Position numbers and translations under genes: made by a program. A DNA stretch of 64,000 nucleotides, taken from positions 806,001 through 870,000 of the forward strand of contig NZ_JAAOYW010000002.1 of the NCBI RefSeq assembly GCF_011761235.1, written 5' to 3'. Shown here piece after piece: positions 55,609 through 62,989 of this stretch. This stretch comes from Frigoribacterium faeni. Lineage in GTDB: Bacteria > Actinomycetota > Actinomycetes > Actinomycetales > Microbacteriaceae. Numbering within the stretch: position 1 is the first letter of the stretch; each line of letters starts with the position of its first letter. The notes below the pieces were generated by a model. The model was given only the letters and a program-made list of their open reading frames with translations. It was not told where the DNA came from and searched no databases.

Positions 55609-56882
55609 GGCGGGCCGGCTCGGCGGCGGTCCGCTCCCCCGCGGCCTGGCTGCTGACCCTCGCGATCGTCCTCATCGCGCTGAACCTGCGCGGGCCCATC
55701 GTCGCCACGGCGCCGGTGCTCGGCCAGATGAGCAGCGACCTCGGGCTCAGCGCCGTGGTCGCCGGGCTGCTCACGAGCATCCCCGTGCTCTGCTTCGCCC
55801 TCGCCAGCCCGCTGGCCTCGAGCCTCATCGTCAAGGTCGGTGCCGAGCGCGCGGTCACGATCGGCCTGGCCGGCGTGCTGCTCGGCACGGTGCTGCGCGC
55901 CCTGGGCACGTCGTCGTGGCTCTACGTCGGCACGATCGTCATCGGCGTCGCCATCACCGTCGGCAACGTCGTGCTGCCCGTGATCATCCGCCGCGACTAC
56001 ACGCCCGACCGAGCCGGCTTCGTCACCGGCATCTACACGTCGGCGCTCAACGTCGGCTCGATGATCACGTCGCTCGCGACGGCGCCGATCGCCGCGGTCG
56101 TGGGCTGGCCGGTGGCCCTGCTCGGCTGGGGCCTGCTCGCCGTGCTCGCCGCCGTGGTCTGGGCCGTCGCCGTCGGGCCGCGGGTCGCGCTCGGCGTGGG
56201 GGCTCGTGCCGAGACCGCCGCGGTCGACGCAGGAGGCGCCTCCTCGGTGGACGTGATGACCGGCGGCATCGACGTGGTCGGGACCGCCGCCCACGAGGCG
56301 GACGCGGAGGCGCGGCGTCGGCCGCTGCTGCGCCGCTGGACCACCTGGGGCCTCACGCTCGCCTTCGCGGGCCAGGCCTTCGCCTACTACGGCCTGACGG
56401 CCTGGATGCCGACCCTGCTCGGCGACGAGGTGGGCCTCAGCCGCGGAGCCGCGGGGGCGAGCTCGTCGGTGTTCCAGGTCATGGCCGTCGTGGGCGCCCT
56501 CGGCGTCCCGCTGCTCGCGCTGCGCTGGCGGCCGTCGGCGGTGATCGCGCTGATCGGCGTGCTCTGGACGGCCATGCCGCTCGGCCTGTTCTTCGCCCCG
56601 GAGCACTGGCTGCTCTGGTCGATCTTCGGCGGCGCGGCCCAGGGCGGCGGCATCACGATCATCTTCATCGTCATCGTGCGGATGGCCACCAACGGCGACG
56701 ACGCCCGGCGCCTCTCGGCCCTCGTGCAGGGCGGCGGGTACGCCATCGCCTCGCTCGGGCCGCTCGCCATCGGCGGGCTGCACGACGCCTCGGGCGGGTG
56801 GGAGCTGCCGATGGTCGGCATCTTCGTGTCGGTGCTCGTGCTCGGCGTCAGCGGCGTGCTGTCGTCGCGCCGCGTGCGCTGA
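55605..56882 (+). CDS. MFS transporter (CynX/NimT family)
   Basis: 425 residues, 12 membrane helices, with a ~60-residue polar loop between helices 6 and 7 that contains the octamer palindrome-derived GGASS. LIALNLRGPIVATAPVLG near the start is the mark of the CynX/YycB/NimT group, which includes cyanate and 2-nitroimidazole transporters. Substrate unknown. The stop codon lies inside the first unit of a 41-bp tandem repeat. Confidence 0.87.
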   Translation: MRRAGSAAVRSPAAWLLTLAIVLIALNLRGPIVATAPVLGQMSSDLGLSAVVAGLLTSIPVLCFALASPLASSLIVKVGAERAVTIGLAGVLLGTVLRALGTSSWLYVGTIVIGVAITVGNVVLPVIIRRDYTPDRAGFVTGIYTSALNVGSMITSLATAPIAAVVGWPVALLGWGLLAVLAAVVWAVAVGPRVALGVGARAETAAVDAGGASSVDVMTGGIDVVGTAAHEADAEARRRPLLRRWTTWGLTLAFAGQAFAYYGLTAWMPTLLGDEVGLSRGAAGASSSVFQVMAVVGALGVPLLALRWRPSAVIALIGVLWTAMPLGLFFAPEHWLLWSIFGGAAQGGGITIIFIVIVRMATNGDDARRLSALVQGGGYAIASLGPLAIGGLHDASGGWELPMVGIFVSVLVLGVSGVLSSRRVR

Positions 56883-56996
56883 GCCGGCGGGTCCCCGTCG
56901 CCGGCGGCGGGTCCGTGCGCTGAGCCGGCGGGTTCCCGTAGCCCGCGGCGGGTCCGTGCGCTGAGCGGGCGGGTTCCCGTAGCCCGTGGCGGGCGG
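56874..56996. repeat. 41-bp tandem repeat, three units, spanning the MFS stop codon
   Basis: GTGCGCTGAG recurs at 56874, 56915 and 56956, exactly 41 bp apart, each followed by CGGGCGGG or CCGGCGGG and TTCCCGTAGCCCG or a close variant. The TGA of the MFS gene is in the first unit. An inverted partner (GGGAGCTACGCGAACCCGCC) follows at about 57009 and can pair with the third unit to form a large hairpin that could end transcription. Confidence 0.85.
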
Positions 56997-59237: not shown

Positions 59238-59774
59238 CTACAGCTCGTCCTCCCACGGCAGCACCTGCGAGCGCGGCACGGGTGCGAGCGGCACGACGAC
59301 CACCGGTCGCTTCTGACGGTGGCTGAGGTGCAGGGCGACGCTGCCGGCGAAGAACTCCCGCAGGCTGCCGCGCAGGCCCGCCTCCCGGCTGCCGACCACG
59401 ATCATGGGAGCGTCGACGGTCTCGGCGAACGTCGCGAGACCTGTCGCGGGGTCGCCCGTGAGCGCGACGAACGCGGTCGGGACGTCGTGGTCGGCGAGCA
59501 CGACCAGCAGCCGCTCGCGCAGGTCGGGCTCGAAGACGACCTCGTCGGCCCAGCTGTCGGGGTCGATCGGGTACGACAGCACCGTCCCGTCGATGCTCTC
59601 GGCGAAGGCCATCCGGTCGGGCTCGACGGCCACGCAGGCGAGGCCGGTGCCGAAGCGGCGGGCGAACTCCGCGGCCCGGGCGACGACGGGCTCGGCGGTG
59701 GCGGGGACGACGCCCACGACGACCCAGCCGTGCAGCTCCTCCTCGGGGCGTCCGACGTCTCCTGACCGGGCCAT
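59238..59774 (-). CDS. universal stress protein (UspA family)
   Basis: 178 residues from the ATG at 59774, which has GAGAGGTGG upstream; the frame stays open 35 codons further up. A single Usp domain: WVVVGVVPATAEPVVARAAEFARRFG, then MIVVGSREAGLRGSLREFFAGSVALHL, the Gly-rich loop of ATP-binding Usp proteins, and KRPVVVVP. The last residues are acidic. The seven-unit palindromic array lies upstream of it, so array-binding factors could act on its promoter. Confidence 0.88.
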   Translation of the reverse strand: MARSGDVGRPEEELHGWVVVGVVPATAEPVVARAAEFARRFGTGLACVAVEPDRMAFAESIDGTVLSYPIDPDSWADEVVFEPDLRERLLVVLADHDVPTAFVALTGDPATGLATFAETVDAPMIVVGSREAGLRGSLREFFAGSVALHLSHRQKRPVVVVPLAPVPRSQVLPWEDEL

Positions 59775-59931
59775 GGCGACCACCTCTCCCACACCGGGCG
59801 GCGGCGGCGCCGCTGCGCGTGAGCACAGTGAACCACCGCGGCGCCCCTCGGCGCGAGGGGCTTCCGCCGGTGCCGGCACGGGGCCGTCGCGGGTGCAGGT
59901 GCCGACGCGGGGGCGGGGTCCCGCTCTCCCG

Positions 59932-60336
59932 CTGTTCCGTCACGTGACGGAACAGGTCCGACACGTCCGAACCCGCCCGCTCTCCAGCTGATCCGTCACA
60001 AAACGGAACAGCCCACACACACATGGCGGAACCCGCCCCCAGCTGCTCCGTCACGAAACGGAACAGCCCCCACACACGGCCGACCCGCCTCCGGCTGCTC
60101 CGTCACGAAACGGAACAGCCCCACACACAACGGGACCCGCCGCCTGCCCCGCCCAGCCGATCCGTCACGAAACGGAACAGCCCCACACAGACGACGGAAC
60201 CCACCTCCAGCTGATCCGTCACGAAACGGAACAGCCCCCACACACAACGGGACCCGCTGCCCCCGCCCCCGCCCATGCGTCGTGAAACGGAACAGCCCCC
60301 ACACAGACGACGGGACCCGCTCCCTCAGCTGAGCGG
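59932..60336. repeat. array of seven palindromic repeat units
   Basis: Most of the 615-bp gap between the usp gene and the SRAP gene, the largest gene-free stretch here. ACGGAACAG occurs at 59947, 60003, 60058, 60110, 60172, 60226 and 60287 (spacings 56, 55, 52, 62, 54, 61). It is usually preceded by CTGATCCGTCACGAA or CTGCTCCGTCACGAA, giving a hairpin. The first unit (59932-59955) is a perfect 24-bp palindrome with half-site CTGTTCCGTCAC. Each is followed by CCCCCACACA and a GGGACCCGC-like block, so the spacers are related too. Not CRISPR. No gene seen within it. Confidence 0.9.
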
Positions 60337-60389
60337 GCACCCGGGGCGAGAGCATGCACCGACGCACCCGCGAGAGCAGACTGGCCCCC

Positions 60390-61073
60390 ATGTGCGGCCG
60401 CTACGTCATCGCCACGGCGACCTCCGACCTGCTGCCCGAGCTGCTCGGAGGGCTCGGCGAACTGCCCGACGACTTCAACGTCGCCCCGACCATGGTGGTG
60501 CCCGTGGTGCGCGTCCGCCACGGCGAGCGCGAGCTGGCCCAGGCCCGATGGGGGCTGACGCCACCGTGGTACCCCGACCTCAAGAAGCGGCCGCAGCCGA
60601 TCAACGCCCGCGTCGAGACGGTCGCGACGAGCGGCATGTTCCGACGCCCCTTCGCCCAGGCGCGGTGCATCGTGCCGGCCCTCGGCTACTACGAGTGGGT
60701 CGTGACCGAGACGGGCAAGCAGCCGCACTTCGTCCACCAGCCCGACGCCGGGCTCGCGATGGCGGGCGTGATGAGCGCCTGGCCCGACCCAGCCAAGGAG
60801 GACGACGACCCCTCGCGCTGGGTGCTGTCGATGTCGATCATCACCCGTGACGCACACGTCGCGCCCGGCGAGGTCCACGACCGCATGCCGTCGTGCCTCA
60901 CGCCGGACGCCTACGACGACTGGCTGGGCGACCACCTCGACGCCGGCGAGCTGCTCTCGCTGCTCGACCGCACCTCCTTCGAGGTCGCCCACGACCTGGT
61001 CCACCACGAGGTGACGCGCGACGTCGGGTCGGTGCGGAACACGGGCCCGCGCCTCATCGAGCCGCTGCGCTGA
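60390..61073 (+). CDS. SRAP domain protein (YedK/HMCES)
   Basis: 227 residues. SRAP proteins trap abasic sites in single-stranded DNA by a covalent bond through Cys2, exposed after Met removal. The start MCGRYV fixes the start codon here. The other signature parts are NVAPTMVVPVVR, ARWGLTPPWY, NARVETV, RCIVPALGYYEW (catalytic Glu) and VHDRMPSCL (active-site His). CAGACT lies 7 nt before the ATG with no SD, so the mRNA may be leaderless. It is divergent from usp across the palindromic array. Confidence 0.94.
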   Translation: MCGRYVIATATSDLLPELLGGLGELPDDFNVAPTMVVPVVRVRHGERELAQARWGLTPPWYPDLKKRPQPINARVETVATSGMFRRPFAQARCIVPALGYYEWVVTETGKQPHFVHQPDAGLAMAGVMSAWPDPAKEDDDPSRWVLSMSIITRDAHVAPGEVHDRMPSCLTPDAYDDWLGDHLDAGELLSLLDRTSFEVAHDLVHHEVTRDVGSVRNTGPRLIEPLR

Positions 61074-62761: not shown

Positions 62762-62873
62762 GGGGACGTGTAAAGAAATCCGCGTTTTCTTTGCATGTCG
62801 CAACGACGTGCCAAGCGGCTTTGCACTGAACGTCGCCGCAGGAGCGGCGGCGCGACAAAAGAACACCGCGAAC

Positions 62874-62900
62874 GAAGAAGGCCCTCCGACAGGAGGGCCT
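62874..62900 (-). terminator. second (distal) terminator behind tRNA-Leu
   Basis: GGCCCTCC, a 4-nt loop and GGAGGGCC. On the minus strand it is followed by the T-rich CTTCTTCG. It is a weaker copy of the one at 62954-62980. Confidence 0.7.
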
Positions 62901-62953
62901 CTCGCCCCGTCGCGCCGCAGGGGCGGCGGCGCGACAGAAGAACACCGCGAACG

Positions 62954-62980
62954 AAAAAGGCCCTCCGATAGGAGGGCCTT
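62954..62980 (-). terminator. intrinsic terminator of tRNA-Leu
   Basis: On the minus strand GGCCCTCC-TATC-GGAGGGCC is followed by TTTTT. It lies 10 bp after the 3' end of tRNA-Leu. Confidence 0.88.
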
Positions 62981-62989
62981 TCGTTCGCG

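Follow-up and report, generated by a model that had tools for sequence, protein, structure and literature searches.

The divergent usp-SRAP gap and its array

The 64,000-nucleotide stretch of the Frigoribacterium faeni genome analysed here (hereafter the window) contains an array of palindromes flanked by two divergent genes. One encodes a universal stress protein (Usp; open reading frame 59238..59879, minus strand; PF00582, E 3.2e-13), with an uncertain start that our home-made gene caller places at 59792, and the other an SRAP protein (60354..61073, plus strand; PF02586, E 5.8e-54), with the conserved start MCGRYV at 60390. The preliminary description of the window had named usp and SRAP as the neighbours of the array, and the Pfam matches and the divergent orientation bear this out. 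The gap carries two conserved boxes, CAGTGAACCAC (59826..59836) and GAGCAGACTG (60374..60383, plus strand, directly before SRAP), each of which was found at ≤3 mismatches in all 16 Frigoribacterium genomes, one per species, that were used throughout. The array sits between these boxes, and the box-to-box distance, 19-20 bp in ten species and 57-89 bp in five, is 537 bp in the species of the window.

All seven units of the array (59932-60295) reported earlier were located, with start-to-start spacings of 56, 55, 52, 62, 54 and 61 bp. Unit 1 (59932..59955) is, as claimed, a perfect 24-bp palindrome, CTGTTCCGTCAC/GTGACGGAACAG, in which 12 of 12 positions pair; 8-9 of 12 pair in units 2 (59988..60011), 3 (60043..60066) and 6 (60211..60234) and in units 4 (60095..60118) and 5 (60157..60180), whereas unit 7 (60272..60295), with only 5 of 12 pairs and the right half alone intact, looks like a remnant (units 2-7 are read on the plus strand). 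The right half, ACGGAACAG, is unbroken in all seven units, in line with the earlier statement that one half is kept exactly and the second varies. The 19-mer core is letter-perfect in four of the seven units, and the window holds eight core matches at ≤3 mismatches, a count that includes unit 1 twice (once on each strand), against 0.03 expected; none of 100 shuffles reached eight. The suggestion that the perfect unit 1 is ancestral found no support, units 1 and 6 being equally distant (2 differences each) from the word of the window's clade, CTGATCCGTCNCGNGACGGATCAG.

The spacers between and after the units (59956..60333) are unequal and related (CCCCCACACA...GGGACCCGC), with 57-87% identity between units, as had been described; this similarity and the uneven unit spacing of 52-62 bp led us to reject a CRISPR array. 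With the spacer included, the closest pairs are units 4 and 6 (90% identity) and units 2 and 5 (85%), and in TRF the 115-116 bp period (404 and 413) outscores those of 52 and 55 bp (320 and 270). Both observations point to the duplication of two-unit blocks, by which the array probably grew.

A search of positions 59700-60500 against Rfam returned nothing at the gathering score and two microRNA models below it (E 0.12 and 0.52); a scan of the window stretch gave three terminator-like and no promoter-like sites. Two other repeats lie in the window, a 41-bp unit repeated 3.0 times (56873-56993; 93%) and a 79-bp unit repeated 1.9 times (62834-62983; 92%). Hairpin-rich stretches resembling the latter are found beside SRAP in relatives (L093, L094, L095 and L099), where they follow a sequence that, from reading it, we take to be tRNA-like.

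A dispersed family in Frigoribacterium

The window's genome (G000) contains 21 matches to the 19-mer core (≤3 mismatches, both strands). Two palindromic words were then counted at ≤3 mismatches in the 16 genomes: word I, CTGATCCGTCNCGNGACGGATCAG, that of the window's clade, and word II, CTGATCCGGTACGTACCGGATCAG. Word I is present in seven genomes (25 sites in G000, 28 in G008, of which 20 were inspected singly, 14 in G012, 9 in G001, 5 in G005 and 1 each in G010 and G011), and word II in ten (21 in G011, 20 in G005, 16 in G014, 10 in G010, 4 in G009, 2 each in G013, G015 and G008, 3 in G000, all of which also match word I, and 1 in G007, a single poor match that we take for chance). The reversed words, searched as controls, gave no sites for word I in the 16 genomes and none for word II. 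Thus, 11 of the 16 genomes carry 2 to 28 sites each at this threshold, and searches with both words yielded no convincing copy in the other five species.

The core was found at ≤2 mismatches in 6 of 60 relatives, namely five Frigoribacterium, including G003 with one half-like match, and one genome from a different family, which matched once. In a sample of 398 Microbacteriaceae, the exact outer arms are present in 6 of 10 Frigoribacterium genomes; of the 388 others, 6 carry them, once each and around other centres. In a collection of 84,980 genomes, 15 of the 32 matching stretches belong to Frigoribacterium (five genomes), and the remaining 17 are one-site stretches scattered over various taxa, including two from a single Acidobacteriaceae bin. 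Viral contigs gave no match to the palindrome, and a viral origin was accordingly rejected.

The preliminary description had listed a REP-like expanding element among its options, and the additional units in the same genome and in sister species strengthen this option. A search of the genome and its relatives had been expected to reveal many dispersed units or the same array beside the same genes; the former were found and the latter was not. The signs proposed for a mere local product included absence of the array from relatives together with a lack of other copies: the array is absent, yet many other copies exist. Slippage confined to this locus, with no related units anywhere else, would agree with the two-unit duplication pattern, but it is refuted as the sole explanation by the copies scattered through this genome and others, and we assign it next to no probability.

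In all 15 other Frigoribacterium genomes, no palindrome element was detected within 1.5 kb upstream of SRAP. This result bears on the proposal of a multi-operator array through which a regulator would act on the divergent usp and SRAP genes. The position between divergent genes and the perfect dyad of unit 1 fit such an array, as does the helical phasing of units 2-7, which, with a turn taken as 10.5 bp, fall within 0.24 of a turn (uncorrected); the 36- and 48-bp spacings of other arrays are not whole turns. However, the array is not kept with the gene pair (0 of 15 relatives), elements are rare in divergent gaps, and the same word occurs beside unrelated genes and inside genes, so that the operator reading is unsupported and appears highly improbable.

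Elements favour convergent gaps and the 3' sides of genes, following stop codons, or occur in frame where genes are variable. Based on home-made gene calls, and with the same locus in several species counted repeatedly, 31 of 89 clusters lie in convergent gaps, 34 in co-directional gaps, 5 in divergent gaps, 17 in genes and 2 at contig edges; a 320-kb sample of G008 comprises 6,800 intergenic bases in convergent, 21,509 in co-directional and 12,270 in divergent gaps. Three of the five 'divergent' clusters (L107, L113 and L114) actually lie inside open frames of genes, which leaves the window array among very few in a promoter-type gap. This location, the rarest of all placements, counts against a mobile element as its source. 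In 12 of the 89 clusters (tallied from rows), the called stop codon is the TGA of the element itself.

A separate rule for intragenic copies, again with loci shared by several species counted repeatedly, assigned 20 of 93 clusters to about seven distinct genes, with all 34 elements in the frame that reads ADPSRDGS/ADPVRTGS. For two clusters, the procedures disagree: L123 (at 1931) is intragenic by this rule and intergenic by the placement calls, and L107 is put on the minus strand by the rule while its gene is shown on the plus strand elsewhere, the frame of the element being unchanged. The host genes recognised by Pfam include those for an FAD oxidoreductase, ROK, MFS, beta-lactamase-fold, PepSY_TM, GAPDH and GNAT proteins. 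In a loop of the FAD oxidoreductase, G000 has four in-frame units of 36 bp, and three sister species have none, with other low-complexity codons in their place. The size of the tandem arrays varies among species: at the PepSY_TM gene locus, 7 units in G008 compare with 2 in G012, and another locus has 7, 4 and 2 units in G008, G000 and G012, respectively. The GAPDH gene of G005 (L142:4986-6971) is extended at the C-terminal end, and several palindromes lie in frame within this extension.

Several of these comparisons count against a mobile element. Filled and empty sites revealed neither a clean empty site nor a target duplication, and the surrounding stretches are very variable. The GNAT genes of G000 and G001 were compared with those of G005, G006, G010, G013, G014 and G015 (G007 and G009 gave a wrong frame only, and G004 gave none). 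In G000 and G001, the word replaces helix codons of the homologues with no change in length and in a different frame, LIRHVTD, which is unlike an insertion. The G008 counterpart of the gene at L115 has the element in another frame, beside the stop.

Two spellings, shared loci and apparent constraint on half-sites

The family comes in two spellings, CTGATCCGTC-NCGN-GACGGATCAG in clade I (carriers G000, G001, G008 and G012) and CTGATCCGGT-ACGT-ACCGGATCAG in clade II (G005, G009, G010, G011, G013, G014 and G015), and each clade is a single branch of the SRAP tree with support of 100/100. In a comparison of 175 elements, which excluded loci that had been fetched twice, 87 of 92 in clade I and 79 of 83 in clade II are nearest to the word of their own clade, with 7 ties and 2 exceptions. 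Within the close subclade of G009, G013 and G015, 2-4 copies are recognisable versus 10-21 in the sisters, and the MFS gene copies of G013 and G015 are decayed.

Some loci are occupied in both clades, usually with the spelling proper to each. For the MFS gene (15 of the 16 loci taken, with the region recovered in 13), the encoded peptide reads DPSRDGS in two clade I species, G008 and G001, but DPVRTGS in G005, G009, G010, G011 and G014 of clade II; besides the two decayed copies just mentioned, the element has decayed in G000, and it is absent in G012, G002 and G003. In eight species grouped by BLAST, a gene with stretches of low complexity carries in-frame copies of the word proper to the clade; two copies from clade I were tested and encode the flagellar hook-length protein fliK (PF02120). 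At a third shared locus, the clade II species G011 bears the clade I word at the position of its clade I relatives, and an element of G000 (L114) is a hybrid composed of one half of each word. At one locus, where the same gap is filled in both clades, the elements lack base-level homology. These observations support, without proving, the view that copies predate the split of the clades and that their spelling shifted afterwards, either in place or through replacement; alternatively, elements may have inserted independently into tolerant sites.

The shared loci and hybrids can be read in a more radical manner, namely that one dimeric trans-acting protein both maintains a dispersed word of 20-24 bp throughout the chromosome, within genes as well, and alters its spelling. 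After a change of specificity in one clade, the copies at shared loci would have been converted in place, with hybrids bearing one half-site of each spelling as intermediates. We consider this scenario unlikely; if true, such an in-place conversion system would fit the classical picture of neither REPs nor operators.

The two arms of the elements do not covary: complementary cells number 660 compared to 674 after shuffling in clade I and 616 compared to 625 in clade II, and the sole excess over the shuffles is at the central pair 12-13 of clade I (equalled in 8 of 500). We therefore rejected a hairpin preserved through compensatory changes. Each half-site appears to be under its own constraint, as would suit a dimeric protein binding the duplex and unlike a hairpin; the same result counts against a mobile element with a hairpin substrate. 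Orthologous elements differ at 52 of 994 positions (5.2%) versus 472 of 3745 (12.6%) in the 50-bp flanks (42 of 45 ortholog pairs usable, the pairs not being independent), figures that overstate constraint because only recognisable copies were paired. By a tally of rows, divergence of the element is below that of the flanks at 14 of 16 loci.

Together with the GNAT helix codons that spell the word, the independent conservation of the half-sites and the lower divergence of the elements are compatible with binding sites of a chromosomal dimeric protein (a nucleoid, segregation or global regulator), where the clade word would reflect a change in specificity and selection would keep the sites, those in genes included. 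It is on account of the half-sites conserved without covariation that the nucleoid- or partition-protein option of the preliminary description retains some plausibility. Against such sites stand the five of 16 genomes without a convincing copy and the mere 2-4 copies in G009, G013 and G015, the strong shifts in unit number at single loci with no common spacing, and the bias and non-independence of the divergence figures. On balance, we give this alternative a low but appreciable probability. GC skew located no origin on the 320-kb sample of G008, and contig 1 of that genome does not start at dnaA, a flagellar-type open reading frame lying there as judged from its translation.

Bidirectional RNA terminators or mRNA-end hairpins, another reading of the same palindromes, would agree with the stable RNA folds of three perfect units (-16 to -19.7 kcal/mol) and with the 3'-end and convergent placement. 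The in-frame copies within genes and the lack of arm covariation speak against both forms of this reading, which we regard as quite improbable, and intrinsic terminators in particular were rejected since, by eye, none of the 33 elements inspected has a T tract beside it.

The clade-specific spelling of a dispersed word also recalls the DNA uptake sequences (DUS) of Neisseriaceae, for which clade dialects are described (PMC3630211). A watermark of this type with dialects would accommodate the fit of the spellings to the phylogeny and the UGA stop in one frame, as in the description of the Neisseriaceae DUS (PMC3630211). However, the lone half-site GACGGATCAG is not enriched (2 observed versus 2.1 expected from a Markov model in the 320-kb sample of one genome, G008; reversed word, 0), and copies number in the tens, not thousands; the watermark was thus rejected, and its probability is minimal.

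Relation to known palindromic repeats and the probable origin of the array

Among the titles and abstracts returned by literature searches, we found no account of a palindrome family in Frigoribacterium, and none that treats RAYT, REP sequences and Actinobacteria jointly; actinobacteria do not figure among the REP families as catalogued in the main text of PMC3733652. Among known systems, the closest likeness is to REPs and RPEs, which are described as also occurring in genes and near 3' ends, with GTAG REPs often supplying stop codons (PMC3733652). Like the GTAG REPs associated with RAYTs, the Frigoribacterium elements are short dispersed palindromes, often in 3' or convergent positions and in some cases within genes (as outlined in PMC3733652 and PMC2817692). 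REP types are reported to track the phylogeny of RAYTs (PMC3733652, PMC2817692), and RAYT-REP coevolution has been described (PMC2817692). By contrast, the consensus profile of the Frigoribacterium palindrome has neither a GTAG tag nor a tag-plus-hairpin monomer, its arms do not covary, and the copies number in the tens versus the usual >100 given for REPs (PMC2817692). Furthermore, the Y1/RAYT transposase model PF01797 matched none of the 16 Frigoribacterium genomes and 5 of 14 control genomes, so that a RAYT-mobilised REP was rejected. With this model, therefore, no transposase candidate emerged, which weighs against a mobile element.

The in-frame copies inside genes are shared with the CGTC REPs, including RPE-4 and RPE-6, which according to PMC3733652 have no known dedicated transposase, occur in genes, show 3' placement and can form clusters encoding 43-82 residues. 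CGTC REPs are defined there by a terminal CGTC tag, a stem of 8-9 bp, a loop of 4-5 nt and a CCA tail (PMC3733652); in Frigoribacterium, an actinobacterial genus, CGTC lies inside the dyad of the clade I word, clade II reads CGGT, and neither the terminal tag nor the 8-9 bp stem is present. Because the defining tag-plus-stem structure is missing, we do not file the palindrome under the GTAG or CGTC REPs. PARCELs, palindromic repeats that encode tandem units of a 25-residue amphipathic peptide (as presented in PMC2996958), resemble the family in that palindromic repeats code for tandem peptides, but differ from it in their unit size (8-9 residues per Frigoribacterium element), and the family has many intergenic copies.

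The explanation that we consider moderately probable is that a REP/RPE-like palindrome, dispersed and non-autonomous, expanded in tandem in this lineage to form the array. Copies would have been present before the two clades diverged, and the word at shared loci would have changed afterwards. We infer a trans-acting dimeric protein that reads both half-sites in duplex DNA and may help to seed or maintain copies; the mobile-element and protein-binding-site readings overlap here because both need a factor reading the half-sites. Tandem duplication, two-unit blocks included, would then have built the window array between the two boxes of the usp-SRAP gap, with consequences for usp or SRAP, if any, arising as a side effect.

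The family bears on how RPE-type palindromes that lack a transposase spread and come to lie within genes. Two related spellings, orthologous loci, hybrids and recent expansions coexist in one small genus, where copying, conversion and selection could be separated. A second motif, GAACCCSGTTTCGAACSATGAACCC, lies near clade II palindromes at 6 of 303 loci (L082, L217, L223, L232, L240 and L241) and forms an inverted pair at L082 and L217.
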